Shown here one piece after another: positions 31,010 through 63,513 of a stretch of 64,000 nucleotides of DNA. The translations under genes were made by a program, and so were the position numbers. Below the pieces are notes generated by a model that did not search any database, was not told the DNA's origin, and saw only the letters and a list, made by a program, of their open reading frames with translations. Source of the DNA: Liolophura sinensis (lineage: Eukaryota; Mollusca; Polyplacophora; Chitonida; Chitonidae); the NCBI RefSeq assembly GCF_032854445.1, contig NC_088303.1, positions 13,649,501-13,713,500 on the forward strand, given 5' to 3'. How positions within the stretch are numbered: position 1 is the stretch's first letter; each line of letters opens with the position of its first letter.

Positions 31010-31756
31010 GTATGACCTTAGCATAAACATTGGTGTAATTGCTGTATTGGTTGCATGATAAATGAATGATCAAAACATCAGAAAGTCTTCTGTTAGCAAA
31101 TATAAGGGTAGTTCAACAACAACACGTGCACGTTGGTGAATGAATGGGTCGGCTACTAAGCTAGGAAAAATACATGTTGTAATATATGTTAGTTTAATCC
31201 ACACTTTATTTACTTATTGGTAGCTAGGGTTTTTTTTTTTTGGTTTTTTTTTGTTTTGGTTTTTTTTACCTAATCTACGACTTTGATTTGAATGGTGTTT
31301 GGCTGTGTTACCGGTAATTGTTCACTGAATTTTAAACCGGTAAGGCACGGCAGGGCAACTGCATGTTGTCGGACAATCAAGTTTGCACAGTAGTCAGTAT
31401 ACATGCCTGTCATAGGTAATATTTTAAAATGCATAAAAGCAGGTGTCTGAAAGTCCCCTTCCTTTGTGCTGTGACTTTGTCGCGTTTAAAATGGTAAATC
31501 TTTCCCCAGAAATTCTCTTAGGTGAATTGTATAACACGAGAGAACTGACTATAATTAGCTAGAAAAGTTTAAGTAATGTATTTGTGTCTGTGTATATCTG
31601 TTGTTAACTTGAGTAGAGTAAAAAATAACTGTTGGTTTATCATGATGCAGGTGTTATTCTTCATCTTTTATTGCATAAATGACTCCAGCCAACTTTTAAA
31701 TTGTTGGATACATGGGTAAGAAGGTTTAGAACGTAAACAGTAATATGTTTTTGTGT

Positions 31757-32035
31757 TATGTCACTAAGTGGTATGACATGCAACCTTGGGATAAAGGAGG
31801 TGAAGGTTCAATCCTGGTCTTAGACAGGGATTTTGTAGATTCAGTAAGTGGTTGATTGTACTGATGGGTGCTTTGTTCACTGAATTCCATTTGGCCACCA
31901 ATTTGACGTGCAAGTCTGAATGTGACATGTGGTAAAGTTCTTTGTTTCCTTCTGATTACTTCAACTTTAAAGCTGATTTTCATTTTATAATTGGACATTC
32001 AAGTATTAAACAGTCAGTTAAATAAACAAATAAAT
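31757..32035 (+). mobile_element. Possible tRNA-headed SINE of another family (copy A)
   Basis: An A-box-like stretch (CACTAAGTGGTATGACATG) and a B-box-like GAAGGTTCAATCCTGG spaced as in tRNA-derived SINEs are followed by about 200 bp of body and a tail AGTTAAATAAACAAATAAAT. There is no second full copy in the window apart from the duplicate at about 41749-42027, so this is tentative. Confidence 0.35.
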
Positions 32036-32903
32036 TCGGGGACTAGAAATTAAGGGTGCTGAATCATACATCCACTTTCTGTAAATCTCAGTTTGCCTAC
32101 AAGTTTTTTCTTATTTGACAACTAAGATCGATTATGTTTTTTGCCTCTAGTAGTACCTGAATAGCTACATGTATTTAATTCATTCAAACTGTAACATAAT
32201 GTTTCATACATTAAAACCAGAACAGTAAAGGAATGCAAAATGAAATAAACATTAACGTATTCTCCTGTTTGAAAGCTTGTTTTTTTCCCCATGCATTTGA
32301 AGGCCCTAATACTGAGTAAAACCAAGTATGTAACTTTCAAAGCATTCATTTACATTATACGTATACAGTGCATGTAGCTTTAAAAACATTTGCTGGGTAT
32401 TCACGTATGCATGTCCATGCAAGCATTCCAGTCCTTATTGTCCTGGTGCTGGTGATAGCAAGGACAGATACATGTAGGTTAGAAAGAAGTTTTACTTTCT
32501 GTCCCTTAGTGTGACTGGTCTTTGTGGACAGGGTTCTAGTCTGGCTGGTTACTATGTCTCATTGTTCAGCTGTAAACACACATGTGAGATGAGTCTTCCA
32601 GAAGGACTACTTTGCTACCTCTTCAGTCTGCTAGACATTTAACAGAAGCACTAAATCAGTCACAATGGACAGGGGTTGTCTGTTTACTGTAAACTTCTCT
32701 CATGTGTAAAGTGCCTTGGAAACTATAATGAAACTAGCCCTTTTGTGCCTTGAAGTCAAGTATCCCCCTCCGTCCATGTTTGAGTAAGAAAGCTACCCTT
32801 AAATATAAATTTCACTGTTGGTATTTTCTTATTGTGTTTACCTGGTATAAGTACATTATAGGTTTATTCTTGTGTGATTCAACACTTTCCTATTGTCCCT
32901 TTT

Positions 32904-32990
32904 TATGCACATTTAATAATGCCTAGATTATTAATCATTTTCCCTTTGTAAAACTTAATTGTGGCTTGTTCCTTATAAAGTGTTACAATA
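32904..32990 (+). other. About 87 bp present in copy A, absent from copy B
   Basis: Copy A has ATGCACATTTAATAATGCC and following AT-rich sequence between CTATTGTCCCTTTTT and AATTTATTGACTG. Copy B joins these directly near 42896. The simplest explanation is an indel between haplotypes. Confidence 0.75.
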
Positions 32991-34644
32991 ATAATTTATT
33001 GACTGTTTTACTATATACAATATAAATAAAGGATACTGTAAGTTGGTGTTTTACCTAAGATAATATAACACTAGAAAAATGTAGATCTATTGAAAGCTGA
33101 CAATTACGAGGAACAGATTCTACTATTAAAATGATGCAGTGTTTTAGGGCATGTCAAGGGACAGAAAGCGTGATACTGTTCTTATTGTATGTGACTTTGA
33201 ACAGAGCAGATATGACTGAAGTAGGAGAATTATGCTTGAATTACATAGAAAGCATGTGTTTCACACAAGAACAAATTTTTAGAACTATCTAAGCTAGTAA
33301 GATTATCAGTCTAGAATAAGCTAATTGAGGAAGTGTAAATAAGATTAGCTCTTGGTGAACTTCATTTTCTTGGGATTGAAGGTGATTAAGATGTTTTGTA
33401 CAGCAGAATTAATAGTTTAGTGAGTAAACTCATAAAATGTGTAGTAAAACAGATCATTGATGAAAATGATGAATTTTTGTTGTATTAAATATGAACCTTT
33501 CCATGATACCAGGCAATGTATAACATCCAGTCTTTAAAGGGCCTTTTTAGTGCCAAGACGCATACGTTTTAAAAGCAAGTTTAAATGATAAGGATAGACG
33601 GACTTATTTTCTAACATTGTAAAAAAATGCATTGTTTTACAGCCGCTGTTGTTAGTTTCAAGAATAATCCAGAAACAAAAGTTTTCTGTCGTTTCCAAAG
33701 ATTTTGTCTGGTCTGACATCACCATCACTGGCGTATAGTCACAAATGATGTTCTTCTGTCAAACGTGCAGACGTTATCTGCCTGATTCATCGTCACATAT
33801 GGAAAATTTTGACGTCACATCTGGAAAATTTTAAGGAAACTGCCAAACATTTTGTTTTTGAGGACTCTTCATTTAAACGGGGAATGAGTTATTCATCGTA
33901 AATTTTTTTGGACCGTGGTGGTAGCTACATTCTATAGGGTATCCTTCATATCACTAATATTTCTGCATAGCGTCTCTTGACACTGAAGTAGCACTTTGAA
34001 TCTGTGGGAGCTGATGGATGTTATATTATGTAATCATTTCCTTTAGATATGAAGGAATATTTAGGTCTGTAGGTAGCCTGGTAGAGTGTAATCATCATTG
34101 TAGTGTTATCATTTCCTAACCCTCACTTACCTACAGAAAGTTGTAAAACTGAATGGTGTTGTAGTTTGCAACTTAGCTGCAGTAACTTTTAATTTTCACC
34201 CAAAGTCCAGATCAATTAGGGGAGACCACTCTTGATGTCATGTTGGCTCAATTTGAACAGCTAGAGGTTACCACGCTGTGGCAGCACAACTAGCTCAGTT
34301 AATTAATTCAACTTTGTTTTCACTTGAAACTCACTTTAAACATTAAGGTGCAATAATGTAAGCAGATGTGTTTTTGACCCTATGATTTTGGAAATATATG
34401 GTCGTGTTTTGTGGGTTGGTTTACCACGTTATATAATAATTAGCCTTGGAGGTTGCCAAAGGTTGACCACACTGAGCTGTAACCCAGGGAAGGAGTATTA
34501 GGTGTTTGATCATTGATGTTCATGTGGGGTAGAACTTTTTTTATGATATGTTTCCATTGTCTTCAACCAGTTCCTCTAATTAATTAATTGTTTTGTTGAA
34601 AATATTTTTACCCATTATGGTCAATGAAACCTAATTTTGTAGAT

Positions 34645-34922: not shown

Positions 34923-35122
34923 NNNNNNNNNNNNNNNNNNNNNNNNNNNNNNNNNNNNNNNNNNNNNNNNNNNNNNNNNNNNNNNNNNNNNNNNNNNNNN
35001 NNNNNNNNNNNNNNNNNNNNNNNNNNNNNNNNNNNNNNNNNNNNNNNNNNNNNNNNNNNNNNNNNNNNNNNNNNNNNNNNNNNNNNNNNNNNNNNNNNNN
35101 NNNNNNNNNNNNNNNNNNNNNN
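34923..35122. other. Assembly gap, 200 N
   Basis: Exactly 200 undetermined bases. A round number points to a placeholder gap placed by a scaffolding program, not a measured distance. It separates the two copies of the duplicated block. Confidence 1.
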
Positions 35123-35435
35123 GTAGACTTGTATTCAGATCTTGAAAGTGTGGTCCAAAAGTTCTAAACAAATATGTTGTAAATTTATGAGGAAAAATGA
35201 AGGTATACTTTATTCATAGATGATTCTCTTATGATTGTGAAATGGATGTAGTTTAGAAATCCAGCTGCCAGTGTTTTTAAGATTTGTATCATAACAACAT
35301 GTACATACAGATGAATTCACTCAATATCCAGAGCTGGTGCTTCAATGCAAAGGTTGATAGTATGTAAAACAGAGCCTCCCTGGACTCGCTTGTATAGGGC
35401 CCGTGTTCACTTTTGCGAAGAGCTGGGTGAATTGT

Positions 35436-35512
35436 ACACACTCATAACGGGTCACAAACACACTCATAACGGGCCACAAACACACTCATAACGGGCCACA
35501 TACCACACATAT
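35436..35512 (+). repeat. 22-bp minisatellite (copy B)
   Basis: Same CACTCATAACGGG(C/T)CACA units as at 25409-25485, with a T variant in the first unit. Confidence 0.85.
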
Positions 35513-35769
35513 TAACAGGCCAAATACACGCATATTAGTTAAATAAAGCAACTCTGCATTAAATGGACTGTCTCCTTCCCTTCAATATTAACAACTTTAT
35601 TGAAGATCTATGAAACAAACAACCTGTGCAGATCCACATTATTTGTTGATGCTGAAAGTGTTGGCTAATGTAAGCTCATCATAATGTGTTGGTGAACATC
35701 AAAGCGTTTAGTTCTGGTAACAGAACTTTGATGACAGTCAGGGAGTTTTAAGCACAGAGTTTGGGTGAA

Positions 35770-36280
35770 TCCTAGAGAGTCTTCATGACAGACAAAAAGT
35801 CAGGCTGATGAACTGAGTGCCTGGATAACCATCAGAGAGTCTTGCTGATGGAAAGAAAGTCTAGGTGATGAACAGTGCCTGGATAATGGATGATCTGTGT
35901 GATGAACTGAGAGTCTTGGTGATGGACAGAGAGTAAGTATGGGTGATGCTTGTGGAGTCTGGGGTGCTGGACAAAATCTAAGAATAATGAGCAGACAGTT
36001 TGGGTGATGGACAAAAGTCGGGGTGATGGGCAGAAAGTCGGGGTAATGGACAGATGCCTGAATAACTAACAGATAGTTTGGGTGATAGAAAGTTTGAATG
36101 CAGGACAGAGTGCCTGAATAACGACCAGGCAGTCTAGGTGATGACAAAAAGTCTGGGTGATTCTCCGAGTCAAGATGTAGGACAGAGTGCTTGGGTGATG
36201 GACAAAAACTCCTGATGGACATGGTGCTTGGATAACGGGCATAGTCAGGTGATGAACGGATCTCGTGCCTGGGATAAGGT
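35770..36280 (+). repeat. Degenerate minisatellite, shorter allele (copy B)
   Basis: Counterpart of 25760-26295. The 20-bp core is present only twice (36014-36053) compared with four times in copy A. Its long minus-strand frames are repeat artefacts. Confidence 0.85.
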
Positions 36281-36637
36281 GCAGGTAGCCTGGACAAAAG
36301 ACTGTTGGAGAGTTGGATATTATGGACGGTGAAAATCCATGATGTGCAGGTAACAAGAAAGATGATTTTAGAATGGTCGGTATTTTAATTTGATGTATAT
36401 AATGAACATGGATTTGTGATTGTGTGAGAGAAATATTGCGGACTGCACACTCTGAAATGGATTTTCCTGAAAGACGACTAGTCTTTCAGCGATGAGGTCG
36501 TATGTTGGAATGCCGCTCTCACCGGCTATATGGTTTTTTGCACAAATAAAATATTAAAAACTATGGCACATGTAGGTTTTCCATCACTTACACATATAAA
36601 TCTGACGTGGTCAAGCGTAAAACACCGGTCAAATAAT

Positions 36638-37978
36638 TACTCTACCTCTTCAACCCTTTCAACTGTCTCTGCAACCAAAGTTTTGAAACATTCTGTGAGA
36701 ACTGTGGGTATAGAAAAATAATTTGTACAGTTTTATTAAGCATGCATCATCAATGACACATCATTTTTGTGTAATTTTTTAAAACAGCTATATGTATAAA
36801 TTCCACTAAAAATGCTTAAGTGGTTGAAGATTTAGTGTAATTACTTTTGTAATTGTGCACAATACACTATATACAAAGCATACACAATGATGTTTGTTTT
36901 AGAAGGGTGTCTGGTATACTGTGAAGGGTCATGGCCATTGTAATGGGTTGTACTGCGGGCACTCTGGTTTGCTGGGCAGTCAAGTTTGCTCCACCCAGTA
37001 ACAGGTGTCATAAACCTGCATGACCACCGTCAAATATAAGTGAAAAATTCCAACGAGTTGCATGGCGTTGAATACCAATCAATCAGTCATCTTTAGGAAG
37101 GGTGTTTGTATTAGTGTTAATTTACACTTAATTTGCCTGAAGCCTTGGTGGTGCAGGTCAAGAGTATATTGACTGGTACTGGTATACTTATTGCAGTGGC
37201 GAAATGTAAGTATACCATGTGCCATGCGGTGTTGTTTTGAAAACGTAAGTCCGGTTAACTTTTATGTGAATTAACATTAAAACATTTTACATGTCATATA
37301 CCCGTTGTGAAAACCTGCTGTGATTTTAATAGTGTTTTCTTTACCTACAGTTTTCATATTTATTTTAAACTTTATTTAACAAAAAGTTAATGTTTAATTC
37401 TTCCAATGCAAATTCAAACGATTCATCCGCAATATGCATTTCTGTGTGTTCAGCAGTGGCATGAAGGTCGTAGTCATAGATACCAAACAAACTCACAAAA
37501 TCTAAATGAATGGCTATTCATTGGTATGCGAGTCCTGATAATTCAAGTATACATTTTAGTACAAATCAGTACATTTTTTGTGCTGGGTTGTATATCATGC
37601 AAAGAAAGGTGCAAGTATAAGCCCCATGCACCAGGTTAAATTTAAAGTCTACCGGCGTTCCATCTGCCTGATCAATTTCTGGAACCCTGCTATATATATT
37701 ACATCATGCCCTATACATACATGCATATATTCTGAGATCAGGACCTATGCATATATATACCATAAATCTTCAACCTTTTCAACCACTAAAACATTTTTTT
37801 CAATGGAATGTATGGATAAAATCATTATGAAAATGATTCTTGTAATGAATTGTTTGTGGTCATTAAAGATGCAAGGTTCATAAAACCGTGCAAATCATTT
37901 CTTTACACCCCATAGTTTTATCAGAATGTTTCAAATATTGGTTGCAGAGGTGGTTGAAAAGGTTGAAGAATTAGGGTA
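36638..37978. mobile_element. Inverted-repeat element (copy B)
   Basis: Counterpart of 26663-28005, with arms 36638-36708 and about 37906-37978. It includes the counterpart of the SINE-like piece at about 36895-37088. Confidence 0.5.
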
Positions 37979-39096
37979 CATATATACTCAACAGAGCATG
38001 CAAGCCGGTTGGGTTCACACACATGAGGTATCTCTTTTGATCTGGAGCAAACATCAGAAGAGAATGATATACTATACATAGGCTAATATAGGATCTATTT
38101 TATTTGTATACCTATAAATATAAAGCCTTAAAATTTCAGCCTTGATTTTAATCAAATTTTAGTTGATCGGTGCCAATTTTTCATCACTTACCATCATTGT
38201 TTAGATGTAGTATTTAAGAAATGTTTAAAAAAAAAAAATTCATTCACATATCCATTTACTGCATGGGCAGCTAACTGATGAATGCATTTTTTAAGCAAAT
38301 TTTGTAACCAGTTTTTTATTTTGCGGTTGTGAAATGTCAAAACCGGCCCATTTTATTATTAACCTGTACAGGGTTATACACCTTCTACAGGTATACATGT
38401 AGGCCCATAATATATATTCATATATATTCCCGCGACAGGCGCCTATTAAAATACACTGTCACTTCAAAGTGTTTAAAGAGTAGATTGGCGGTGTATAGGT
38501 TATCATGTTTTCTGACCGTGAAATAAGCAGAGAGTATTAACATCAGGTTCAGGTTACACGAACCCTCTCTGTGTGGTGTGTACGAGTCAAATTGCTGCCA
38601 GTGAACAGTCTCACCAATGCTGTCAGCAATGTACCTGACTGAGCTCAATGACCGTGTAATCGATCACCTCAGGTGCATTGCCGTATTCAGCGTATACATG
38701 TACCTGTCGCGGGTCGTATAATTGATTAGTGATGGAGGCATGGTTTAAGTGTTCTCTGCGCAAACTTGGTTTTCAGATAGACGTTTATGTGAAGGATCGA
38801 TCGGGAAATATAGGGAAAATAAACAAGTTGGTGACTTTTCCTGTACATATAGGTCTGTATCTATATACTTGTGTATTAAGAACCGATATTAGGCACGGTA
38901 CGTAACATAAGCCCATACAAAAGTTAAATTTAAAACAAAATCAGAACAAACAAAACATAAGCAACCCCCCCCCCCCCGCCCACCTATCCGATATTAAAAA
39001 AATCCAAGCATATATATAGCCCTATATTAGCTCTATCGATCGATTGGGAACGGCGAGTTACAAAAAAATATGCTATATGCCTACGGTTAACACTAG

Positions 39097-39798
39097 ACTA
39101 TCACAGCCCTGTCTTATTCCATAAGCTTACATTGAACCCCTCTGCACTTCCTTTGCTGGCTTTAAAATACTACTGCTGGGCATCAAAAAATTTGTTTGTC
39201 CATAGTCATACTGATCGCATCTATCAATCCCAGGTAGGTGTTCCAATGTGTCATCACTAATAAGTATGAGAATCGTGAAAGCTGGATAAATTTTAACTCC
39301 AAACGCCATATTTGAATGCATACTCCTCACAGCCGATACAAGGGAGATAACTACTGATATTATTTGTATGTTTTGTACATCTTGTTTAATCTATTCTTTA
39401 ATTGTTTGAGAATTTTTTTTATTCATCAATTTTGGGTTCCTTCTATGTCATTACTGCTGAGGCTGATCCTAAACAAATAACCAGGATGCGTGTCAAATGG
39501 TCTAACTTGCCTAATAGTGGCAGTGATAACTGTGTACATGATTCGCTTGACTGAGAGAAGTATTCATTCAAACATGCCTGTTGGAGTTGGCGAATTTTTC
39601 CAGTTTCCATTAATTTCATGCTTGTGTGGATTTATTAGTGATGACATATGGGAAGACCTACCTGGAATTGATAGCTGAGACGACTATGACTACGGACAAA
39701 CAAATTATTTGGTACCCAGGAGTAGTATATTAAAGTCAGTAAGGGAAGTACAGAGGTGTTCAAGGTAAGCTTATGGAACAAGACAGGGCTGTGATAGT
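39097..39798. mobile_element. Long inverted repeat with about 240-bp arms (copy B)
   Basis: Counterpart of 29122-29811. The left arm starts at 39097 and the right arm runs from about 39551 to 39798. A short insertion lies in the spacer (39352-39364). Confidence 0.65.
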
Positions 39799-40690
39799 AT
39801 CACAGTCTTACAGAGCTAAACTTTTATTTTGTCCTGTAGAGGTTTTCAATCCTGTATGGTACGTAGTGGCCTTTCACGATCGTTTAACCTACAACTCCAT
39901 GGTTTACTAGCTGGTGTAGTGTCGATATATAACCTACAATAAAATATCACTCGATACCTGCAGAAATATAGGCTATAGCTTGACAAAATCCATCCGACTG
40001 GCAGAATATGTGGGCTATGAAAAATTGTATACCTGCAAGCAGGGCCTGCAAGTATATCATATGGAGCTACATGTAGCTAGGCCTCTTCAATTAAAATGGA
40101 ATTAAAAAGTGCCCAAGTAGGCTACTGGTATACATAACCTGTACTATATTTGATTGTAAATGAAATTTAATACGTTGTCGGATATCTTGAAATGCGTATG
40201 AAATACACAGGCCAGTAAGGCCTACAATAACGAACAACTTAAATATTGTGATGAAAAAGTCCAAACATTAACGAAACTATGGGCCTATATATAGCTAGGC
40301 TCTCATATATATATTTGTATATACAATAACAATCGAATTCGATATCCAATGTGATTGCATTGGAAAAAAAGTATATTAAAATACAGGTACACACATCTGT
40401 AGAAGTTCGATGTATTTTTGGATAAACTTGTATTTTCAGCAAAAAGCAAATTGTTATTTTATCGTGTGTTGTAGATTAATTGTTTTCATGCATATATATA
40501 AAGCCGTGCATGCTTGTTTCTATTTTTTTCTTTTCTTCTCTTTTCTAGGTTGTCTTTGCTCGTTCCCTGTTTGAAGGAGACCACCGCCAGCGAGGCCGCT
40601 CATGTTAAAGGTTACCTGTCCACGCGGATCACTTTTCTGTCAACCGTTGAATATGCAAATGAGAAGTCGCGTGGAGACTTGTAAACAGTC

Positions 40691-40726
40691 AAGATGGCGA
40701 CGACAACGTTGGGACATGTCGAGTGA
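40691..40726 (+). promoter_or_regulatory. YY1-like motif and upstream ORF (copy B)
   Basis: Same AAGATGGCG motif and 10-codon upstream ORF as in copy A, about 165 bp before the candidate start at 40857. Confidence 0.45.
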
Positions 40727-40856
40727 CAGAAAGGTGGGGAAGAAAACCAAAAACTGCGAAGAAGATCGCCGATCCTATCTAAACAGCTATCTCTAGAAAA
40801 GTATTTGCTGTGTCAGACTTAAAAACAAATGTTGTAATATATTGGAGTTAAAGACA

Positions 40857-40994
40857 ATGTCTGAAAGTGCGAAAGGGCCTTTGGGCACTCGCACAGCCAA
40901 AACACGCACCACAACTCCGGGCGGTGAACCAGGGAAAACGAACAAATCACGACTGGCAGCTTTAGCTCCCGGCGAAAATATCAAAGAAAAACAG
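40857..40994 (+). CDS. Candidate first coding exon, 46 codons, probably dynein (copy B)
   Basis: Identical to 30872-31009 in coding sequence and donor (CAG/GTATGA, phase 0). This is the copy continuous with the dynein gene without an assembly gap, so it is the one to use in a gene model. The intron to the exon at 55465 would be about 14.5 kb. The peptide is a basic, low-complexity N-terminal extension (MSESAKGPLG... ending NIKEKQ), of the kind some dynein heavy-chain isoforms carry. No transcript evidence is available. Confidence 0.5.
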
Positions 40995-41748
40995 GTATGA
41001 CCTTAGCATAAACATTGGTGTAATTGCTGTATTGGTTGCATGATAAATGAATGATCAAAACATCAGAAAGTCTTCTGTTAGCAAATATAAGGGTAGTTCA
41101 ACAACAACACGTGCACGTTGGTGAATGAATGGGTCGGCTACTAAGCTAGGAAAAATACATGTTGTAATATATGTTAGCTTAATCCACACTTTATTTACTT
41201 ATTGGTAGCTAGGGTTTTTTTTTTTTTTTTTGGTTTTTTTTTGTTTTGGTTTTTTTTACCTAATCTACGACTTTGATTTGAATGGTGTTTGGCTGTGTTA
41301 CCGGTAATTGTTCACTGAATTTTAAACCGGTAAGGCACGGCAGGGCAACTGCATGTTGTCGGACAATCAAGTTTGCACAGTAGTCAGTATACATGCCTGT
41401 CATAGGTAATATTTTAAAATGCATAAAAGCAGGTGTCTGAAAGTCCCCTTCCTTTGTGCTGTGACTTTGTCGCGTTTAAAATGGTAAATCTTTCCCCAGA
41501 AATTCTCTTAGGTGAATTGTATAACACGAGAGAACTGACTATAATTAGCTAGAAAAGTTTAAGTAATGTATTTGTGTCTGTGTATATCTGTTGTTAACTT
41601 GAGTAGAGTAAAAAATAACTGTTGGTTGATCATGATGCAGGTGTTATTCTTCATCTTTTATTGCATGAATGACTCCAGCCAACTTTTAAATTGTTGGATA
41701 CATGGGTAAGAAGGTTTAGAAAGTAAACAGTAAATATGTTTTTGTGGG

Positions 41749-42027
41749 ATGTCACTAAGTGGTATGACATGCAACCTTGGGATAAAGGAGGTGAAGGTTC
41801 AATCCTGGTCTTAGACAGGGATTTTGTAGATTCAGTAAGTGGTTGAGTGTACTGATGGGTGCTTTGTTCACTGAATTCCATTTGGCCACCAATTTGACGT
41901 GCAAGTCTGAATGTGACATGTGGTAAAGTTCTTTGTTTCCTTCTGATTACTTCAACTTTAAAGCTGATTTTCATTTTATAATTGGACATTCAAGTATTAA
42001 ACAGTCAGTTAAATAAACAAATAAATT
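41749..42027 (+). mobile_element. Possible tRNA-headed SINE of another family (copy B)
   Basis: Counterpart of 31757-32035. Confidence 0.35.
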
Positions 42028-44486
42028 CGGGACTAGAAATTAAGGGTGCTGAATCATACATCCACTTTCTGTAAATCTCAGTTTGCCTACAAGTTTTTTC
42101 TTATTTGACAACTAAGATCGATTATGTTTTTTGCCTCTAGTAGTACCTGAATAGCTACATGTATTTAATTCATTCAAACTGTAACATAATGTTTCATACA
42201 TTAAAACCAGAACAGTAAAGGAATGCAAAATGAAATAAACATTAACGTATTCTCCTGTTTGAAAGCTTGTTTTTTTCCCCATGCATTTGAAGGCCCTAAT
42301 ACTGAGTAAAACAAGTATGTAACTTTCAAAGCATTCATTTACATTATACGTATACAGTGCATGTAGCTTTAAAAACATTTGCTGGGTATTCACGTATGCA
42401 TGTCCATGCAGGCATTCCAGTCCTTATTGTCCTGGTGCTGGTGATAGCAAGGACAGATACATGTAGGTGAGAAAGAAGTTTTACTTTCTGTCCCTTAGTG
42501 TGACTGGTCTTTGTGGACAGGGTTCTAGTCTGGGCTGGTTACTATGTCTCATTGTTCAGCTGTAAACACACATGTGAGATGAGTCTTCCCAGAAGGACTA
42601 CCTTTGCTACCTCTTCAGTCTGCTAGACATTTAACAGAAGCACTAAATCAGTCACAATGGACAGGGGTTGTCTGTTTACTGTAAACTTCTCTCATGTGTA
42701 AAGTGCCTTGGAAACTATTATGAAACTAGCCCTTTTGTGCCTTGAAGTCAAGTATCCCCCTCCGTCCATGTTTGAGTAAGAAAGCTACCCTTAAATATAA
42801 ATTTCACTGTTGGTATTTTCTTATTTGTGTTTACCTGGTATAAGTACATTATAGGTTTATTCTTGTGTGATTCAACACTTTCCTATTGTCCCTTTTTTAA
42901 TTTATTGACTGTTTTACTATATACAATATAAATAAAGGATACTGTAAGTTGGTGTTTTACCTAAGATAATATAACACTAGAAAAATGTAGATCTATTTGA
43001 AAGCTGACAATTACGAGGAACAGATTCTACTATTAAAATGATGCAGTGTTTTAGGGCATGTCAAGGGACAGAAAGCGTGATACTATTCCTTATTGTATGT
43101 GACTTTGAACAGAGCAGATATGACTGAAGTAGGAGAATTATGCTTGAATTACATAGAAAGCATGTGTTTCACACAAGAACAAATTTTTAGAACTATCTAA
43201 GCTAGTAAGATTATCAGTCTAGAATAAGCTAATCGAGGAAGTGTAAGTAAGATTAGCTCTTGGTGAACTTCATTTTCTTGTGATTGAAGGTGATTAAGAT
43301 GTTTGGTAGAGCAGAATTAATAGTTTAGTGAGTAGACTCATAAAATAGGTAGTAAAACAGATCATTGATGAAAATGATGAATTTTTTGTTATATTAAATA
43401 TGAACCTTTCCATGATACCAGGCAATGCATACATCCAGTCTTTAAAGGGCCTTTTTAGTGCCAAGACGCATACATTTTAAAAGCAAGTTTAATTGATAAG
43501 GATAGACGGACTTATTTTCTAACATTGTAAAAAAATGCATTGTTTTACAGCCGCTGTTGTTAGTTTTCAAGAATAATCCAGAAACAAAAGTTTTCTGTCG
43601 TTTCCAAAGATTTTGTCTGGTCTGACATCACCATCACTGGCGTATAGTCACAAATGATGTTGTTCTGTCAAACGTGCAGACGTTATCTGCCTGATTCATC
43701 GTCACATATGGAATATTTTTACGTCACATCTGGAAAATTTTACGGAAACTGCCAAACATTTTGTTTTTGAGGACTCTTCATTTAAACGGGGAATGAGTTA
43801 TTCATCGTAAATTTTTTTTGGACTGTGGTGGTAGCTACATTCTATAGGGTATCCTTCATATCACTGTAATATTTCTGCATAGCCTCTCTTGAGACTGAAG
43901 TAGCACTTTGAATCTGTGGGAGCTGATTGATGTTATATTATGTAAATCATTTCCTTTAGATATGAAGGAATAATTAGGTATGTAGGTAGCCTGGTAGAGT
44001 GTAATCATCATTGTAGTGTTATCATCTCCTAACCCTCACTTACCTACAGAAAGTTGTAAAACTGAATGGTGTTGTAGTTTGCAACTTAGCTGCAGTAACT
44101 TTTAGTTTTCACCCGAGTCCAGATCAATTAGGGGAGACCACTCTTGATGTCATGTTGGCTCAATTTGGACAGCTATAGGTTACCACGCTGTGGCAACACG
44201 ACTAGCTCAGTTAATTAATTCAACTTTGTTTTCACTTGAAATTCACTTTAAACAATAAGGTGCAATAATGTAAGCAGACGTGTTTTTGACCTTATGATTT
44301 TGGAAATGTATGGGCGTGTTTTGAGGGGTTGGTTTACCACATTATATAATAATTAGCCTTGGCGGTTGCCAAAGGCTGACTACACTGAGTTGTAACCCAG
44401 GGAAGGAGTATTAGGTGTTTGATCATTGATGTTCATGTGGGGTAGAACTTTTTTATGATATGTTTCCATTGCCTTCAACCAGTTCA

Positions 44487-45274: not shown

Positions 45275-46497
45275 ATTCATCTACTCCATGTAGTAGTTTC
45301 CACACCATTAACAATAGTAACTCCTACAATGTGTGTTAAGGACTGTTCGGCGCACTGCTGAAAGCTGATGAAGCTTTATCAATAAAATCATTCTTAGACC
45401 TAAAAATGAAGGATGAGAAACTTATTTGTACACATCTAAGGACATGCCATGAACTAAATAAACATTTAATAAAATTCTGTTTCACATACATGTACGTGTG
45501 CATGTATTCTTTTATTTTACCTATGCAGTATGGTAATGTCTTATGGTCAGGAGCCAGGTTTGTTGATTTGATGAATGACTTTATTATGAATTCAATGAAG
45601 GAAGAACCCCATGCAGTTTGAGATTGCAGATTAATTGATTTCCAGTGTGTCCGTCAAAGTGATGCATTGGCTTCAAATGGTTCTATACAGATCTGGTGTT
45701 CAATTGGACATCCTGAGTTGCTTCAGTAGCCTGACAAAAAGCTCTGCACACATGTTGGTAATACTGAGGAAAAAATCATTATACCCTTTCATCGCGTAGG
45801 CTTTCTTGCATGTTAAGTACATAGTACCATAACAGTAGTTCTGCCAACTGCTTTGTCGATAGTTGGTAAAGGCGTTTCTTGTCACTGTATATGATGGTAC
45901 AGCTAAGGACCTGAGTGGATGTGGTGTTAGAGATCATCGTTATAGTCACAGTGACAGGTTCTTGTATACTTTAACCGGGATAGGTGATCGTGTTACACCT
46001 GTATCCATAGTAATTCATCCATGGGATAACGGGTTGAATTACGGGTGTGTACACCGGCTTTCTTTAGTCTTATAACCACACCTGTGCTGTGGATAACATT
46101 TATCGAATGCCAAGGTACAATGTATCACACTCAGGACCAAGTAGAGGTGAGTTTTGTTGTATGATATTTTTGGATGGAAATTCATGTTCACTTCTCAAGT
46201 TTATAGTCACTGTTAGTCCATGGTACAAATACTTATACTTCTTTCTTTTAAAAGACATTAAAATTAACAGCTCATTTTCCATTGACAAATGAAATATATA
46301 AAAGGCCTCTAACTACTCAAGCATGAAACTGAAACTGTGCGGGAGGCTGTTTTAACGCAACTTCTTCATTTGTTTGCAAGTGTATCTATATGTCCTTTTG
46401 GAAATTAAATTCATAACAGAGTATGTGATTTACAACAGTAGTTGAATTTTCATGTTCTTGGTGAAAATATCCCACATTGTTTCATGAAATCTGAATT
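45275..46497. other. Non-coding, no gene recognised
   Basis: Unique sequence just after copy B. An open stretch from an ATG near 46109 (MPRYNVSHSGPSRG) ends at a strong donor-like GAG/GTGAGT at about 46147, but its phase (1) does not join the dynein exons, so I do not call it an exon. Confidence 0.4.
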
Positions 46498-54077: not shown

Positions 54078-57000
54078 ATGGCTTCTCAGCCAGCCTCAAA
54101 ACTCCGCAGAGATGATTTACTGGTATGTTTTGGTGTTTAAATTTGTCATATAATACAACATGTATTACATTATGTATTACATATGTTGAAAGTTAATGTA
54201 CAAAATACATGTACGAGCCAAGCAGACTGTGACATGTAGGAGCAAGTTGTTCAGAAATGTAGTAGGACTTGAATAGGCCCAGTATTACATTTTTGTCAAA
54301 TCTAAGGTGGATGCATTTACTTCATATTGGGATATTACACTGGTATTTATATTTAGGCTTGGTTTAACCTTACTTCAAATTCTCCATGAACCATTAGTCA
54401 AAATCTCTTGTCCACAGTCATGATATATTACATGTAGTTGTGTATTTCTGTAGTATTACCAATTAACCACAACTTGTAATATCAAATAGACTTGAACCAG
54501 TTAATAACTGACTTGAATTAAAGTGCATGGGATTTGTATAATGTCATTTATAATTATCCCATTAAGAAATTAGCTAAAAGTGTCAGTCTGTACTGTATTC
54601 TTCTCTTCAACAAATATATTGATTCAGACCTTTTGAGGGTCTGAAGGAAGGTCAGCTGTTTGTTAACTGAGTTTATCAACCCGCTGTAAATAAAGTCTAT
54701 CAATCAATCTATTCATCGTATATTGACAGCATTGTCCACAAGTTTCCACAGAAATGCCATTTTTACATAGTGGATAGCCATAGTGGATTTGCATTTTTGA
54801 ATTTTTTCTTGCATCTAAATTGTTTTTTCAAACAAGTGAAACATTCTTGAACATTATAACATTATAGACTAACTGCGGAAGTTACCATTTACTGAATATT
54901 AATGTTTAACAAAAGCAAGTTGTTTTCTTACTTGCTTGTAGCGTACATCTACTTTTGACATTTATGTAACATTGAATAACACAGCCTGTCCATGTAAAAT
55001 TGGAAACTTTCCCTTCATGTAAATATGTTCAAGAAAAATTCTTGGGGGCCTCCATGGCTGAGGTGGCTAGCATGAGCCTCTCTCCAATGCGGTCACTGTG
55101 AGTTCAAGTCCAGCACATGCTGGCTTCCTCTCCGGGCGTACATGGGAAGGTCTGCTAGCAACCAAAATTCTCGCCCTCATTACGAGTACAGCATACTAAC
55201 ACCAATCAAATAAACCCAATAAAATAAATTCTAGGGCTTTGACTAATGAAACAGTAACCTTGTCAACCATTTTGCATTCATGCATTCATGTCTACTTCAG
55301 GCTGTAGTTTTAAATCATATATAAGTGTAACATTGATAGCGTTATCATTTTTCACTGTGCACATGCATACATTTTGTGAGGACTTGTGTTCATTTGTCCA
55401 ACTACAGTATTCCGAAGAGACTCCCAATGTTGTGTCTAATTTTCACTTCTTCTTCTGTTTCCAGCAAAAACTGAAAGAAGAGCGAGATGCCAAGCGAGCT
55501 AGCCTTGATGAGCGGCACTGGTACATTCTGCAGACGGTGGCAGACTGTCTGGTCATGGAGCCTGCTGAGGTGGAGGACGCCATACTAGAGGGCAGACAGG
55601 TACGGCAGCACCATTGGCACTCAAATACATTTACATGGCACTTTTAACTACAGTCAATATTTGAAGAAAATTAGTGTGGTCTACATTTCAACTTTTCTGT
55701 GTTTAAATTTTCTAGTATTATGCCAATACCCACTTTGATTTAAAGTTATATTTGTTGGCTTTCCTGTCAATTTTGCATGGTGTGGTTTAAATTTACATTT
55801 GGTATAACTCATATATGATAAGTTTATGCTAACCTGTGACCAATTTGTTCCTTTATTTCATATTTTGTCTGTAGTTGTCTACTAAATTCTTTCATTTGTC
55901 ATCATTTGACTCAATCTTTTTCTGTCATATACGTGTATGTGATATCTATTTAAGAAGCTATGTAATTAAATACTTTATTTTTCAGATTGAGATCATTGAC
56001 AAATTTCTGGCAGAAAACGGCAGTAGTCAGTTGATGTTTTATTACCAAGAGCCAGAGGTGGAAAAAGAACCAGGTAACACTTTATGTGTATCATATTGTT
56101 GTTGATTAGGCTATTTTTTGTTTCCTTTTGATGATTTGTAAAGTAACTTTTGTTTTTCTGTTTTTATTTTTTTTATTTAGGTGAATAACTCTTAAAATGT
56201 AATTCAAAATATAATGCAGATTGGTCCTTGCACGATCTCTTGCACCTCTAATTGGTTAGATTAGTCCCATTTTTCGACTAATAAAGGGGGACATGCACTT
56301 TAATACTATTTCAAAGAATGCTCCTGTTGACTAGAAAATTAAGGTCAAGCGGTAAACTGTGGAGTTTCTTATATTGATAATCTGCAACCCTGCAGTTCCT
56401 GAACAAGGAAATAGCAATTCTGATCAAAGGTGCCTTAGTTAAATAAGAATAGGTCCAATAGACATACATTTAAATTTTTGGAGTTCAAAGTATAAATTTT
56501 TTCATGGCAGGGTACAAGAAATTTAGAGGCTTATAAATGAGGACTCTTTTTGGTGGTCATATAACCATATGAACCATAATTCCTTAACCTCTTTGCATAT
56601 CAAAGAGCAACTTTCAGTGCCATCTGTGCACAGTTATAATTGGATTTTTAGAGACAAAGCTACATTGGTTTTATTGGCCATTTTCAGTGCGTCCCAAAAA
56701 CTGTAATTTTAACAGTCTACGCAGAATAATGCCTTCAGCGTAAGTCCGAATAAACACCTTGCAGACACGAGAAAGGGTTGAAGAGTTGGAGTAACAAGAT
56801 CATAAACATACAACACTGCAAGACATGTAGTTGGACGGCAGATATGTGTTTCTGAGATGGCTCTTTAACACATATTGTATGCTGATAAATCTTGTGTTTG
56901 AAAGCTGACATCAGTCCAATGAAACAGTATTCAACACATTTGCAACATTCATTAACAAATATATGGCTACAATGACTAAGCCAATGACAGAGCAACTTAT

Positions 57001-60000
57001 AATGGTTAATACTGATGTTTAAACTGGCACAGAGTTTCTGTAGACATTGGATAATTCAATTTGAATGTTATTTTATGCAATGTAACATTTTACCTTTCAG
57101 CTGTAGAGTTTCGATTACAAAGCTCTTCCGTGAAAACAGGTGATAAGACGGTGCTATATTCACTAACATCCACTTCAGAAGTGTACCACTACAGTTTTCT
57201 TCCTCTATATAGCACAGGTCATATGCACTGCAGGTCTTGGGGTCTTATGTGTACCAGTCTCACAAAAGCTACATCTAGTAGCTAATCTCTATATTGGTTT
57301 GTTGCTAACCATAGATCTGAAGAAAAAAAAAAAGCCTCCTGCTTCAGATTTTGGCAAGGGACATTGACTCTTTTGTTTTGAAAGGAAAAATTTTGATTGG
57401 TACTCTTTTCAAGCAATGGCAAGTCATCTGATTTTCTTAGACTGAGAGTGCTTCTTCAGATCTAGTTGGTAACAATTTTTATACAGAGCAGCTCCAGGAT
57501 CTGGGGTCAATTCAACAAAATCATTTCTGACTTAAATCAAAAATTTAAATACGATCATAAAGCTTATATTTCTGCTTAAGAAATTGAAATTTTGTTCACC
57601 TCATCAGTACCAGCTGAAGACAAAAATGTCAAAATTTCTACTTCGAGAACCTCATTACTTGTTATGCATTGTAACGAGGTTTTAAACTTAAGTCAGAAAC
57701 GGCTTTACAGAATCGGCCCCTGGCTTTTTAGTGGGATTCAGGTCTCTGCTAACATTTCCTCCTGCACATACATGTATAACTCAGCTTGGCTTATTCTAGA
57801 GCATTGCGATACCCATTTGCTCATTAGTATTGAGGCAAGTGAGAGGCAACCTGCAGCCTGACAGTCAAGTAGTTGGATGTGCACATAGCACTGTTTAATG
57901 TTCGTTATGCTACAACCTTTGGTCTATGGATTTTAATCACTTGTTTTTCATTGTTCATGAACATTTAGACATATCATTTGTTGTAGTTTTTTGAAAGCAA
58001 ACCTACATTTTTGATTGCGCTTGTACTGCTGGATTTGTATGATATAATTAATTGATAAGATACATGTACAGTAGGAATATCTACATGCATGGACGTTTTA
58101 TCTTAGAGGGAAAAACAGTACGTCCTAAAGAAAATAGAGGCCATAGTAGATATGCTTTGTGTTAACCCTTGTCCTAACTGGTGGCCATGTCGGGGTTGAT
58201 CAGCTTATGTTTGTTTTAATCCCAGTGGAATGTCCCACCTGGAGGAGGGTTAACATACTTTTATAAGCCATGAAGTTCATATTTCTAGTAGCCTCTTTTA
58301 GATTGAAGTACACATTCATTATGCTTGGTGGATTATCTTGGGAGAATTGCAGAGAAGTTATAATATACACGTACAGACCTAAGTATAATAGACAAAGTCA
58401 TATCTTTAGTACACATGGTTTAGTATTGTCTGCGGTACACTAATGTAAAATGTAAAAGCTCTGAACATGTGCCAAACGCTAGATCTGCAACAACAGCTTT
58501 CTGTAATTCGTGCTGATCCTTATAATAAAGTCCATAATGCTTCTCAAGGGACGTCTGTCATTTTAAATAGCAAAGCTGGATATATGTTTATATAGATTTT
58601 TGATTTATGTTTTGTGTTGGATTGCGGGAAAGCGGTGTAGCAGTGTTCTGTAATTTAAATACCTGTACAGATATTGCTCATACAGAACTCCTCTAGAAGT
58701 ACAGGAATCTTTCATGGTTTTATACCTGCAATGATACACGCAATTTTGTACGTCATATAAAATTGTTAGTAGTTATAGTTGAATTGTAATGTTATGTTGA
58801 AAATTGGTAACTAGATGTAGAATGAAGGTACATATATTGGTCATTTAGCTGCAATAGACTCTCAGCTTGATAGAATTATTTTCTGAGCTGCTATTTATGC
58901 TTTAATGGTGTCCAAGATGGAAAAGTTGAGCTCTGAGTAAAAAGATGGATGTAGAAACAAATTTTGTTTGTGTTCTGGCTCTAGATGACACCATTTGATA
59001 CTTACACCTTGATCGTGTTTGTTGCCTCATAATGACACCATATGACCAGTATACCTTGATGAGCGTAATATCATGTGTTGGTAATTTCTTTAATTGCAAA
59101 CTTATATTCCAACAAGCAACGGAGGGAAAAGAATTTGGCTTTGTTTCTTGACCAAAATAGCACTGTAAGAGTACTCTATTGTAGTTGGCCAGCCCAGTCC
59201 AGCCTATTGATTTATTTATTAATTTGATTGGTGTTTTATTCTGCACTCAGAAACCTTCCAGGGTTCATTTTGTTCAAAGGTATATCTTATGGTGTCATCT
59301 AAGTGGGTCAGTTAAAAAACAAAGGCTTTTAAAGAAGCGAAGTGGACTGCTTACATGTTCTTTTACTTGTGGGCACATATACGTATGTACTGTCTAAAGT
59401 CAGACTGGAGACATTCTGATTTTGAAACAAAACTGCTTAATGTTACAGCAGCTTAAAATTCACAGAAACTGTCCTGGAGCATGTTTCACACAGTGCCTGT
59501 AGTGTTGCATGCTCGATGGCAACCAGTAACCAGGTCTTGTGTAATTCTGCCGATATAGCTATGGCATCTCTCATGCCAGTATTTCCATGACATCTCTCAT
59601 GCCAATATAGCGATGGCACCTCTAATGCCAATATATCTATAACACCTCTCATGCCAATATATCCATGGCACCTCTTATGCCAATATATCCATGACATCTC
59701 TCATGCCGATATTTCCATGGCATCTCTCATGTCAGTATATCCATGGCATCTCCAGTATATCCATGGCACTACTAGTACCAGTATATCTTTGGCACTACTC
59801 GTGCCAGTATATCCATGAGACCTTCAATTATTGCCAGTATATCCACGGGATCTTTGGCATCAGTATATCCTTGAGACCTCTTATGCCATGGCACTTTTCT
59901 GTCTCATGTTAGCCTATACTTTTCAGTTTACATTGGAATGTTCAATATACTTTTATACATTGATGCTGTACATGTGTACCATCACTTACTGTATATACTT

Positions 60001-63000
60001 GTTCTCACATGTTTATTATTGGTGTGTTTATGTGTATAGGTTTTATTCAGCATCCATTACCTTAATATGGGCACCGTTTTCTCCCATCATAGTGCTGGTT
60101 GCCGTCATTTATGTGAAATATTCTTGAGTACAGTGTAAAATGCCAATGAAATAAATAAATAAATACCTTATTGAGTACTTGTAAATTTACCTGTTTGCCC
60201 ACTAATATTGCTAAGTGTGTATCTTTGTTTCCTTCGCAGTGATGAGTACATGAATGCTTTGTACATGATGTTGTCTTCCTGACATGAATGAGTACATGAA
60301 TTTTGTTTCCCCTGTTCAGTAGATCAGATCCGCATTGGACCACCCCAGACTAAACCAGCCAAGGTTACCAAACCTAAAGTGTTTGTCACTGATGGGAAAG
60401 AGGTACCACTGCGAGGAATTTGTCTCTTCTTTACAAGAGGTAATACCTCCGTGGCCATTACGGAGGTCAACATTGTCAAGGTAAGACAGACAATGTGATA
60501 AATTCATTTAAGCTGGTTGATAAATGTATTTGTAGATCAACAAGAAGAACGTAATTTTCAAAGAAAGTGGTCCATTTTGATCATATTCCAAGACGTAAAT
60601 AGTAAACAGTTTGTTAGTAAATATGTGTTTACTTGAGTTGTCAAATTGAGGTCCATGATTTCAAAGAGGATATGACGTTATGTTAGTGAAAGATCTGCTT
60701 GTCAGAAGTGAGTCAGTGATGGACAATAGACGTCAGCATCACCTTTGATGCACCTGTGATTATTAGTGAATGAAAGTCACTGAAACCAAATCTTTTTTTT
60801 GTTTACCAATAGTGATGACCAATAATAATGAATGATTTTTGATGATATCAAAAAGCTGTGGAAATATGACTTGTTGATGTTTTGAAGAAGGCCCCTTGCC
60901 CAGTTAATGTGTAGTTCCAGTGTAAGTCAAGTAACAAAACCATGCCTTTGTCACCAGGAAATCAACTTCACGATCCTGGACACCAATGGTCATGGGAAGA
61001 ATGGTCGTGGCCTGCTTCATGCCATTGAGAACCTTATGTCCTCTATCTTCATTCCTGCACTGAAGAGGCTCGAGAAGGGATGGGGAGAACTGCAAACCCC
61101 TGCTGGCACCCCAGTCAGAACTGACTTCCTCAACTGCCTAGATTCTTTTGTGTCTGTCCTGGTTGGTAAGTAATGCTTATTAATTATCCTACATTTCTGT
61201 GAAAGTGAGATCTGGATTCAACCTTTCTTCCAATAAGTTTCTTTGCAGTTCTCTTAAGGTGGTCTTACGTCAACTTTGCTGAAGATTTCTTGATTTTAGT
61301 CCAACATGGAGTGGTACTTTCAGCTTGGCCTGAAGATGATAAACTGTGTGAGACACGTGGCAAAATTTTTCTGTTGCTTGCCAAGTGTCAGTGGTTTATG
61401 CTGTTGTGTACATGCAAGTAAAAACTGAGCGTACAGATGAATAGGCATTAAACCTCTTAACATTGCTTAATAGATATAAACCATGAAGGCTTGTAAAACT
61501 TTTGGATTAACCAAAATGTATCACTGGGTAAAGTGAGCGCTATCGCTAATTGCCTATACCTTTGTGAATTTATTAACAGGTGCTCAGGAGAGCCTGGAGG
61601 ACAAGGTGACCCTGAAGCCATGTGCGATGTACGACTTGTCAAAAATCCAGACACCTGCTGACTACATGGCTGTGGCTAACAGCAGTGAGGCCCTGGAGAG
61701 CATAGAGGAGTGTCTGCAAGTCTGGATCAAACAAATAGAGCAGGTAATCCACTAGGTCTGAATCAAACAAATAGGACAGGCAAACCACAGAGTCTGGATC
61801 AAACAAATGGAACAGGTAAACCACCAAGTCTGGATCAAACAAATAGGACAGGTAAACTTCCAACTCTGGATCAAACAAACAGGACAGGCAAACCACAGAG
61901 TCTGGATCAAACAAATGGAACAGGTAAACCATCAAGCCTGGATCAAACAAATAGGACAGGCAAACCACAGAGTCTGGATCAAACAAATGGAACAGGTAAA
62001 CCACCAAGTCTGGATCAAACAAATAGAACAGGTAAACTTCCAACTCTGGATCAAACAAACAGGACAGGCAAACCACAGAGTCTGGATCAAACAAATGGAA
62101 CAGGTAAACCACCAAGTCTGGATCAAACAAATAGAACAGGTAAACTTCCAAGTCTGGATCAAACAAATAGAACAGGCAAACCACAGAGTCTGGATCAAAC
62201 AAATAGAGCAGGTAATCAGGTAAGTCTGAATCAAACAAATAGGACAGGTAAAACACCAGGTCTGGGTCAAACAAATAGGACAGGTAATCCACTAAGTCTG
62301 AATCAAACAAATAGGACAGGTAAACCTCCATGTCTGGATCAGACATATAGAACAGGTAAACATCAAAGTCTGAATCAGACAACTAGTGCAGGTAAACTAT
62401 ATGTCCGGATCAAACAAATAGGACAGGCAAACCACAGAGTCTGGATCAAACAAATAGAACAGGTAAACTTCCAAGTCTGGATCAAACAAATAAGACAGGC
62501 AAACCACAGAGTCTGGATCAGACAAATGGAACAGGTAAACCACCAAGTTTGGATCAAACAAATAGAGCAGGTAATCCACTAAGTCTGAATCAAACAAATA
62601 GGACAGGTAAAACACCAAGTCTGGATCAGACATATAGAACAGGTAAACATCAAAGTCTGAATCAAACAACTAGTGCAGGTAAACTATATGTCTGGATCAA
62701 ACAAATAGGACAGGTAAAACACCAAGTCTGGGTGAAACAAATAGAGCAGGTAATCCACTAAGTCTGAATCAAACAAATAGGACAGGTAAACCTCCATGTC
62801 TGGATCAGACATATAGAACAGGTAAACATCAAAGTCTGAATCAAACAACTAGTGCAGGTAAACTATATGTCTGGATCAAACAAATAGAACAGAGAAAACA
62901 CCAAGTCTGGGTCAAACAAATAGAACAGGTAAACTTACAAGACTGGATCAAACAACTAGAACAGGTAAACCTCCATGTATCAGACTAATAGAACTGGTGA

Positions 63001-63513
63001 ACCACCAAGTCTGGATGGAACAAATAGAGCAGGTAAACCTCAGAGTCTGGATCAAATGAATAGAACAGATAAAGCTCAGAGTCTGGATCAGATGAATAGA
63101 ACAGATAAACCTCAGAGTCTGGATCACATGAATAGAACATGTAAACCTCAGAGTCCGGATCAAATGAATACATGTAGAACAGGGAAAAGTCTAGCTCTGG
63201 TGTTGTTACCTCAATGCATGATAGTGTGAAACTCTTATAGATTGGTCAGATTCATACATGTATATCTATTCTGGCTGTACATTTTATTGTAATTACATGA
63301 TGAAGATGAAGTAAGCCGTTGTGTTCCATTGATTAGGTTCTAGCGGAGAGTGAACAGATGAGGAAGGAGGCAGATGATATAGGGCCACGAGCAGAACTTG
63401 ACCACTGGAAGAAGAGGATGTCAAGGTTCAACTACCTGTTGGACCAGATCAAAGGGCCAGAGTGTAAGGCTGTATTAGGTGTGCTTACTGCAGCCAAATC
63501 AAAACTACTCAAG
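54078..63513 (+). CDS. DNAH5/DNAH8: Axonemal dynein heavy chain, DNAH5/DNAH8 group, N-terminal exons (continues beyond the window)
   Basis: Exons seen: 54078-54122 ([15 protein letters not shown]), 55465-55599, 55986-56073, 60320-60480, 60958-61165, 61580-61743 and 63337-63513. All introns are GT-AG and all phases join, giving 326 residues of a protein that is usually over 4,500. Diagnostic stretches: [72 protein letters not shown]-like [49 protein letters not shown] and [20 protein letters not shown]. These belong to the start and N-terminal tail of the outer-arm gamma-type heavy chain. The tail binds intermediate chains and neighbouring heavy chains and anchors the motor to doublet microtubules; the AAA+ motor lies beyond the window. 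DNAH5 and DNAH8 cannot be separated here. The intron after 61743 is filled by a repeat of the exon end (see 61717-63200). Confidence 0.93.
55045..55230 (+). mobile_element. SINE (family 1) with an altered 3' half
   Basis: Head GGGGGCCTCCATGGCTGAGG, B-box-like GTGAGTTCAAGTCCAGCACA, CGTACATGGGAAGGTCTGCT. Most of the middle is then missing before TACGAGTACAGCATACTAAC and ACCAATCAAATAAACCC. A 7-bp repeat AAATTCT on both sides (about 55036 and 55227) may be the target-site duplication. It lies in the first dynein intron. Confidence 0.8.
57101..57139 (+). CDS. Candidate 13-codon cassette exon of the dynein gene
   Basis: A pyrimidine-rich acceptor (TTTTACCTTTCAG) and a donor ACAG/GTGATA bound 39 bases. 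Both neighbouring exon ends (56073 and 60320) are phase 1, and this piece is phase 1 at both ends, so it can be included or skipped without a frame change. The insert would read [13 protein letters not shown]. There is no protein-family support; it is a prediction from splice signals alone. Confidence 0.35.
57503..57720. mobile_element. MITE-like element (copy 1) in a dynein intron
   Basis: The left end GGGGTCAATTCAACAAAATC ... TTTCTGACTTAA and the right end TTAAGTCAGAAACGGCTTTA ... GAATCGGCCCC are inverted matches over about 33 bp. The interior is about 150 bp. A related element lies at 63561-63744. Confidence 0.7.
59206..59256 (-). mobile_element. SINE tail fragment (family 1)
   Basis: ATTTATTTATTAATTTGATT then GGTGTTTTATTCTGCACTCA is the inverted 3' end of the family; the rest is absent, a strong 5' truncation. 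Confidence 0.55.
59549..59900 (+). repeat. 26-bp minisatellite in a dynein intron, about 13 units
   Basis: Units of the form GCCAATATATCCATGGCACC + TCTCAT start at 59549, 59575, 59601, 59627, 59653 and 59679, exactly 26 bp apart. Later units become irregular (shortened near 59750, then 27-33 bp) before the array fades near 59900. The frames that stay open through it on both strands are repeat artefacts. Confidence 0.9.
60066..60165 (+). mobile_element. SINE 3' fragment (family 1)
   Basis: CTCCCATCATAGTGCTGGTT, GCCGTCATTTATGTGAAATA, TTCTTGAGTACAGTGTAAAA, TGCCAATGAAATAAATAAAT. The head is missing. It lies about 150 bp upstream of the dynein exon at 60320. Confidence 0.75.
61717..63200 (+). repeat. 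36-bp minisatellite made of an exon end plus its splice donor, about 40 units
   Basis: The first unit starts inside the dynein exon: CAAGTCTGGATCAAACAAAT then AGAGCAG, exon end 61743, then GTAATCCAC. The unit is then repeated head to tail at a 36-bp period. Most units keep the whole exon-end/donor block, as CAG/GTAAAC or CAG/GCAAAC. Some units are 35 bp (those with AACTAGTGCAGGTAAAC), and larger blocks of several units recur at about 62284, 62571 and 62750. The last units are degraded (for example CAGATAAACC, which has lost the GT). Because 36 is a multiple of three, long frames stay open on both strands; I regard them as artefacts of the array. The array fills almost all of the intron 61744-63336. 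Confidence 0.95.

Follow-up and report, generated by a model that had tools for sequence, protein, structure and literature searches.

A 36-bp minisatellite at the end of a dynein exon

The window analysed here is a stretch of 64,000 nucleotides from the chiton Liolophura sinensis (contig NC_088303.1), whose end carries the 5' part of a gene for a DNAH5-type axonemal dynein heavy chain. Within this gene, a 36-bp minisatellite begins inside a coding exon and repeats the exon end together with its splice donor. The exon (61580..61743, + strand) comprises 164 bases, ends with the letters VWIKQIEQ and is preceded by an acceptor cag that can be read directly at 61577-61579. It is followed by an intron of 1593 bases (61744..63336, +), approximately nine tenths of which is array, and by a downstream coding exon (63337..63513, +) identified by alignment with human DNAH5. 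The joined translation of 61580-61743 and 63337-63513, exons that span C9:13711080-13713013, aligns without a gap with residues 213-325 of human DNAH5 (E 7e-42), and a paralogue on contig C1 (L003) encodes the same stretch with the intron missing at that place. From this alignment and the paralogue that lacks this intron we infer the junction, which makes the intron phase 0.

Tandem Repeats Finder delimits the array at 61717-63164 on the + strand, with a period of 36, 40.4 copies, 79% matches and a score of 1650, and unit cutting yields 40 units. Unit 1 (61717-61752) is made up of the final 27 exon bases and the initial 9 intron bases, and the repeated segment takes in the genuine exon/intron boundary, as placed by the DNAH5 alignment, plus the splice signal. 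An earlier reading of these letters, hereafter the original prediction, had proposed a 36-bp minisatellite starting inside the dynein exon, with the coding exon end as unit 1 and a unit of 27 exon and 9 intron bases; the repeat scan and the unit cutting bear out both points. The 40 units comprise 32 distinct sequences. Pairs of units that are identical or differ by one mismatch are found most commonly at lags of 3, 5, 8 and 13 units, with single pairs at lags of 2, 10, 12 and 15 and none at lag 1. This pattern is that of a block-wise expansion, and the block structure, seen in one assembly, is compatible with copy-number instability. Among the most diverged units are 14, 19, 27 and 32, together with 36 and 38-40, which lie near the distal end of the array. 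Mean entropy per position is 0.46 for exon-derived versus 0.63 for intron-derived bases, and 0.39 and 0.84 at the GT positions. Selection on the donor bases of the array was considered and set aside, the entropies giving no clear sign that decoys are purged or preserved; we read units 2-40 as probably evolving like plain intron.

Other origins and roles for the repeat were also rejected. A query of two units against the 609-Mb genome gave at least 24 matches, and 24 of the 24 matches listed fall inside the 61717-63164 array; with no match outside it among those listed, a dispersed satellite was discarded as the source. That the exon continues into the array as coding sequence is ruled out by stops at 61753 and 61759. 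Long open frames do cross the array (297 aa on the + strand, 247 aa on the - strand); they are attributed to the period being a multiple of three and are not taken as genes.

The authentic donor and its decoys

The authentic donor, CAG|GTAATC at 61744..61745 (+), agrees with the consensus at 7 of 9 positions. CAG|GTAA is kept at the donor place in 27 of the 39 downstream units (61816..63034, +; first at 61816, last at 63033), as GTAAAC in 20, GTAATC in four and GTAAAA in three, which upholds the proposal that the donor itself has been amplified. Seven of the 39 units carry CAG|GC, two (36 and 40) have GT in a weaker context and three (33, 38 and 39) have no GT at the donor place. In addition, a perfect donor, CAG|GTAAGT, lies out of register at 62220..62221 (+). 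The decoys are thus many, as had been anticipated, but the figure of about 40 has to be lowered to 27 good ones plus the out-of-register site at 62220. Likewise, most units were thought to share a CAG/GTAAAC context with the true donor; the CAG|GTAA decoys do score like it, but the true donor reads GTAATC and GTAAAC occurs in 20 of 39 units.

The scoring of each unit with a 5' splice-site model, a check put forward with the original prediction, was carried out with a donor model of 112 introns, those with a candidate pair among 121 considered, placed by comparing two dynein paralogues of this genome. The intron at 61744-63336 was excluded and the donors of two other dynein arrays, described below, were included; 90 of the 112 donors have a posterior >0.9, and some at the bottom of the score range were probably placed wrongly. 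By this measure the authentic donor is middling, as 37 of the 90 high-confidence donors of the two dynein genes score lower, and the GTAAAC decoys are level with it (38 of 90 lower), while the site at 62220 scores above all 112 modelled donors. Since decoys equal the authentic donor and one exceeds it, modelled donor strength cannot pick the true site. What would be the consequence of using a decoy? When the exon runs into the array, the dynein frame meets TAG at 61753 and TGA at 61759 (61753..61761, +), both of which had been foreseen. Every transcript spliced from a decoy would include the in-frame TAG of 61753, which follows the true donor by 9 bases, and the expectation that decoy use would give a truncated product is retained.

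Donor-copying arrays elsewhere in the gene and the genome

The array is not a single oddity, given that two more donor-copying arrays occur in the same gene and others elsewhere in the genome. Tandem-repeat scans of the dynein gene, for which the window numbering is carried beyond 64000, place one of them at 82699-82961 (L008; C9:13732199-13732461), with a 44-bp unit repeated 6 times, its donor at 82705 and 6 exon bases in the unit, and the other at 94023-94689 (L010; C9:13743523-13744189), with a 37-bp unit repeated 18 times, its donor at 94039 and 16 exon bases. The junctions at 82705 and 94039 are both gap-free against human DNAH5. In the two dynein genes, which have 113 introns with a placed donor, nine arrays have a period >=15 and >=2.5 copies; three of them span a donor, all in the gene studied here, none spans an acceptor and the remaining six are wholly intronic. 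Three pieces below these thresholds lie within 30 bases of an exon or in it: one in gene A just beyond an exon end (76553-76594), one in gene A within an exon (94909-94953) and one of two copies in paralogue B on the acceptor side, just 5' of an exon (45549-45594). If they were counted, the claim that acceptors are free of arrays would be weaker.

The genome surveyed has 632 contigs, which add up to 609,464,459 bases. The survey pattern, three CAGGTAAGT spaced 20-50 bases, has 249 matches versus 161 for the reversed pattern, these being overlapping matches and not arrays. Among the matches listed, those on C1 and C2 amount to 13 arrays, all of which were followed, and one array on C3 was left out; the open frames of eight of the 13 were submitted to Pfam and the other five were judged by eye. 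Four of the 13 arrays lie at a database-supported coding-exon end, in genes for RNA polymerase III RPC1, GH31, SMAD MH2 and DERA. For RPC1, a PDB match (E 2.4e-8) runs through the last residue, Pfam gives no match and the unit holds 32 exon bases. The GH31 exon (L035; C1:26351200-26353600, array from 2206) has a Pfam match through the last residue and contributes 32 exon bases to a unit of 39 bp, or 13 codons; this array is open in the exon frame across the 165 bases scanned, and splicing from a decoy could lengthen the protein by repeats. The SMAD MH2 exon also matches Pfam through its last residue, with only 5 exon bases in the unit. At the DERA locus (L036; C1:53593500-53595850), arrays at 639-841 and from 2201 stand just after two exons. 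With two exons joined by hand, Pfam DeoC is matched up to 20 residues before the exon end; the exon alone has no Pfam or PDB match. The counted array is called from 15 bases past the donor, and its later units agree with the final 20 exon bases at 14-15 positions. The first DERA array (19 bp x ~10) was left uncounted because it starts 2 bases past the donor and holds no donor copy. The reading frame of the first DERA exon shifts at a G run, through assembly error, polymorphism or decay.

Three more of the 13 arrays (L026, L037 and L041) are likely to lie at exon ends, each having an open frame with an acceptor that ends at the array, with no match in Pfam or PDB. A presumed resemblance to polycystin (L026) and ARFGEF3 (L037) adds to the exon reading of these two. 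The exon bases repeated number 35 in L037 and only 2 in L041; in L026, judged by eye, the array begins ~8 bases past the presumed exon end, which would be a GC donor. At six of the 13 pattern arrays no exon was recognised. L039 (C2:107200-109550) and L040 (C2:174700-177050), where likewise no exon was recognised, are similar loci ~67 kb apart with the same 40-bp donor-like array.

For a control motif, 13 of the 14 arrays among those listed were taken and inspected on the 5' side; the one omitted also carries CAGGTAAGA. Two filled nearly the whole piece and one was unrecovered, which leaves 10 informative arrays, from which six open frames were submitted to Pfam. None of the 13 control arrays could be shown to begin at an exon (10 informative, six frames tested); one frame gave a sub-threshold Pfam match with E 0.03. 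The survey pattern was chosen to contain a donor, and 4/13 versus 0/13 is therefore no test of a bias in array formation.

Nine donor-copying arrays were scored, namely the three in dynein and those of RPC1, GH31, DERA, SMAD, L037 and L041. Each holds at least one decoy that equals the authentic donor or lies within 0.3 bits of it; in three of them (RPC1, GH31 and L041) the closest decoy of this kind lies 26-44 bases downstream, is stronger than the authentic donor and has a perfect consensus. Arrays found by the pattern hold strong decoys by construction, and hence this bias is absent only from the three arrays in dynein.

Discussion

The geometry of the dynein array, the equality of its donors on the model, its block-wise structure and its recurrence are the observations from which our explanation starts. 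We propose that the array is a 'mirage', that is, a boundary minisatellite whose first donor is used and which is removed in its entirety as intron, and we hold this to be very probable. The seed may have been a tandem duplication of a short segment straddling the exon/intron boundary, and growth would have followed by copy-number change in multi-unit blocks, with recombination or slippage as the presumed cause. Unit 1 would be kept coding by selection on the dynein protein and the other units would drift as intron. Splicing most likely takes place at the first donor, which closes the 164-base exon opened at acceptor 61579, and this choice would depend on exon definition or early co-transcriptional commitment, not on donor strength. 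The array would be spliced out whole; decoy use, if any, would lead to transcripts stopped at 61753, which would probably be degraded. As such arrays are also present in the core-function genes RPC1, GH31, SMAD and DERA, normal splicing beside them appears possible and gross mis-splicing unlikely, an argument from gene identity and not from measurement.

The geometry of a boundary minisatellite is already known, and the statement that no such case had been described does not stand: the mirages of amphioxus (PMC3087553, PMC3902484) and human IFI6 (PMC4526556) precede the chiton array, which is a mollusc case of the mirage structure. Amphioxus mirages are tandem repeats that span exon/intron boundaries in the Adh3 and globin genes (PMC3087553), later extended to TnC (troponin C) and PGBD5 (PMC3902484), and they are reported not to disturb regular splicing (PMC3087553, PMC3902484). 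The amphioxus cases (Adh3, the globins BflGb6 and BflGb9, TnC and PGBD5) resemble the chiton array in being minisatellite-like boundary repeats, with many units that hold copies of the splice signal, adjoining a genuine boundary. They differ in copy number, reported as 6 and 3 in two BflGb6 haplotypes versus 40 in the chiton, and in the boundary concerned, since the three chiton dynein cases are at donors whereas mirages are described at 5' and 3' boundaries. In amphioxus, splicing is reported as regular and the repeats as variable between haplotypes and unstable in somatic cells, whereas the chiton array is known from the sequence of one assembly. The host also differs, mirages being reported from cephalochordates and the chiton being a mollusc, which is a matter of lineage and not a structural criterion. 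Amphioxus was considered as the source of the genome and discarded: a row of eight hemocyanin beta-sandwich matches on C8, from a domain that marks molluscs and gave no match in 14 control genomes, points to a mollusc.

A second precedent is the human gene IFI6 (also 6-16 or G1P3). Turri et al. 1995 reportedly found that minisatellite units of IFI6 provide splice donors. The gene has a donor-carrying minisatellite whose units supply splice donors (PMC4526556), and in this respect it is like the chiton array, with usable-looking donors in 27 of its 39 downstream units. In IFI6, however, use of downstream units is described as giving several mRNAs, whereas in the chiton decoy use would bring in a stop 9 bases past the true donor. 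In human genes of segmental duplications, internal tandem repeats that lie at exon-intron boundaries have been described as a source of introns (PMC2812944); as in the chiton, such repeats alter gene structure, but novel introns are proposed there, whereas the chiton repeats enlarge an intron at an existing position. A search of the open-licence literature found no mollusc case of a donor or boundary array. The accessible text on Conus introns deals with simple repeats and holds no mention of boundary arrays (PMC3862624), and that on earthworm metallothionein describes first-intron minisatellites with no boundary copy (PMC12783039).

Several observations weigh against the mirage explanation, some bearing on the tendency of arrays toward donors and others on the use of the first donor. 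Regarding the former, a donor is expected in the first unit of 0.54 arrays versus 3/9 observed (P about 0.014), and the excess becomes weak (P about 0.08) once the array that gave rise to the search is set aside. None of the three arrays of the C1 paralogue is at a donor, and in the part of a third dynein gene that was counted none of three arrays is at a recognised exon end. For these reasons a bias of arrays toward donors is suggested, not shown. The array might then be an ordinary intronic minisatellite whose edge reached the exon by chance, and which would neither affect splicing nor tend to form at donors. The sole difference from a mirage is the weight given to the boundary, and the P value of about 0.08 and the six of nine dynein arrays that are wholly intronic speak for such an origin. 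It is opposed by the three donor-spanning versus no acceptor-spanning arrays among these nine and by the occurrence of 4/13 donor-pattern arrays at database-supported exon ends versus 0/13 control arrays. We regard it as a possible but doubtful account.

Regarding the latter, the perfect donor at 62220 may capture part of splicing, and in human IFI6 downstream repeat units are reported to be usable as donors (PMC4526556). Decoy use could thus be regulated or leaky, in the manner of IFI6: some transcripts would issue from downstream donors, chiefly 62220, and truncated products sensitive to nonsense-mediated decay would tune or lower dynein output. The decoys are level with the authentic donor, 62220 surpasses all 112 modelled donors, and two downstream repeat units of IFI6 are described as donors (PMC4526556). 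On the other hand, every decoy isoform would contain the stop at 61753, and the amphioxus mirages are reported as normally spliced (PMC3087553, PMC3902484). We judge this explanation unlikely, and it may hold in part alongside the mirage explanation. Finally, an assembly artefact, by which the array was collapsed, expanded or invented, is highly improbable: although a HiFi coverage of only 14x with a mean read of 8,347 bases is reported (PMC11068029), and there is, within the window, a 200-N gap between near-identical flanks at 25-44 kb, the 1.45-kb array is far below the mean length of the reads from which the assembly was built, its units differ from one another (32 sequences among 40) and the sole N run of the window (34923-35122) is far from it.

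What are the implications of mirages in a chiton? The new elements are the two additional donor-copying arrays in the same gene and the recurrence at other exon ends of the genome. One genome thus offers seven database-supported exon cases: the dynein gene accounts for three, with 6, 18 and 40 copies, and RPC1, GH31, SMAD and DERA for a single case each. No motif search was involved in finding the three in dynein, whose decoys equal the true site in strength. A structure known from lancelets is thereby extended to a mollusc, and one concrete route of intron growth is provided. Choice among near-identical donors is normally studied with engineered duplications. We put forward only tentatively, and with some doubt, that introns of this chiton grow widely through minisatellites seeded by donors, and that the chiton splicing machinery takes the first donor despite equal or stronger ones within tens of bases, strength mattering little. 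If this is true, first-donor choice at widespread arrays would constitute a natural, repeated counterpart of duplicated-splice-site experiments. RNA-seq of five Liolophura tissues (SAMN35319765-SAMN35319769) is public (PMC11068029), and donor choice is therefore directly countable; the tissues named are digestive gland, foot, gill, gonad and heart, of which gill and gonad would be the likeliest to express an axonemal dynein. The interest of these arrays resides in their copy number, in the way they recur within a single gene and a single genome, and in the fact that the question is decidable from public RNA-seq.

Other features of the window and assembly

An open frame at 55258-55647, upstream of the 164-base exon, is taken by us to resemble an N-terminal dynein exon, and a minisatellite of 26 bp x 10.6 lies at 59548-59817, also upstream of that exon. 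In the third dynein gene a further array, at 39404-40000 and outside the counted span, lies ~320 bases past an exon end. The published Liolophura assembly amounts to 609.5 Mb in 632 scaffolds with an N50 of 37.34 Mb (PMC11068029), and its species name has been corrected to L. sinensis (PMC12441733). The 200-N gap at 34923-35122 is flanked by direct copies of ~9.4 kb that are 96-98% alike (25097-34573 and 35123-44485). The start of the second copy adjoins the gap, which is suggestive of a scaffold join with a haplotype copy that escaped purging, and not of a true tandem duplication.

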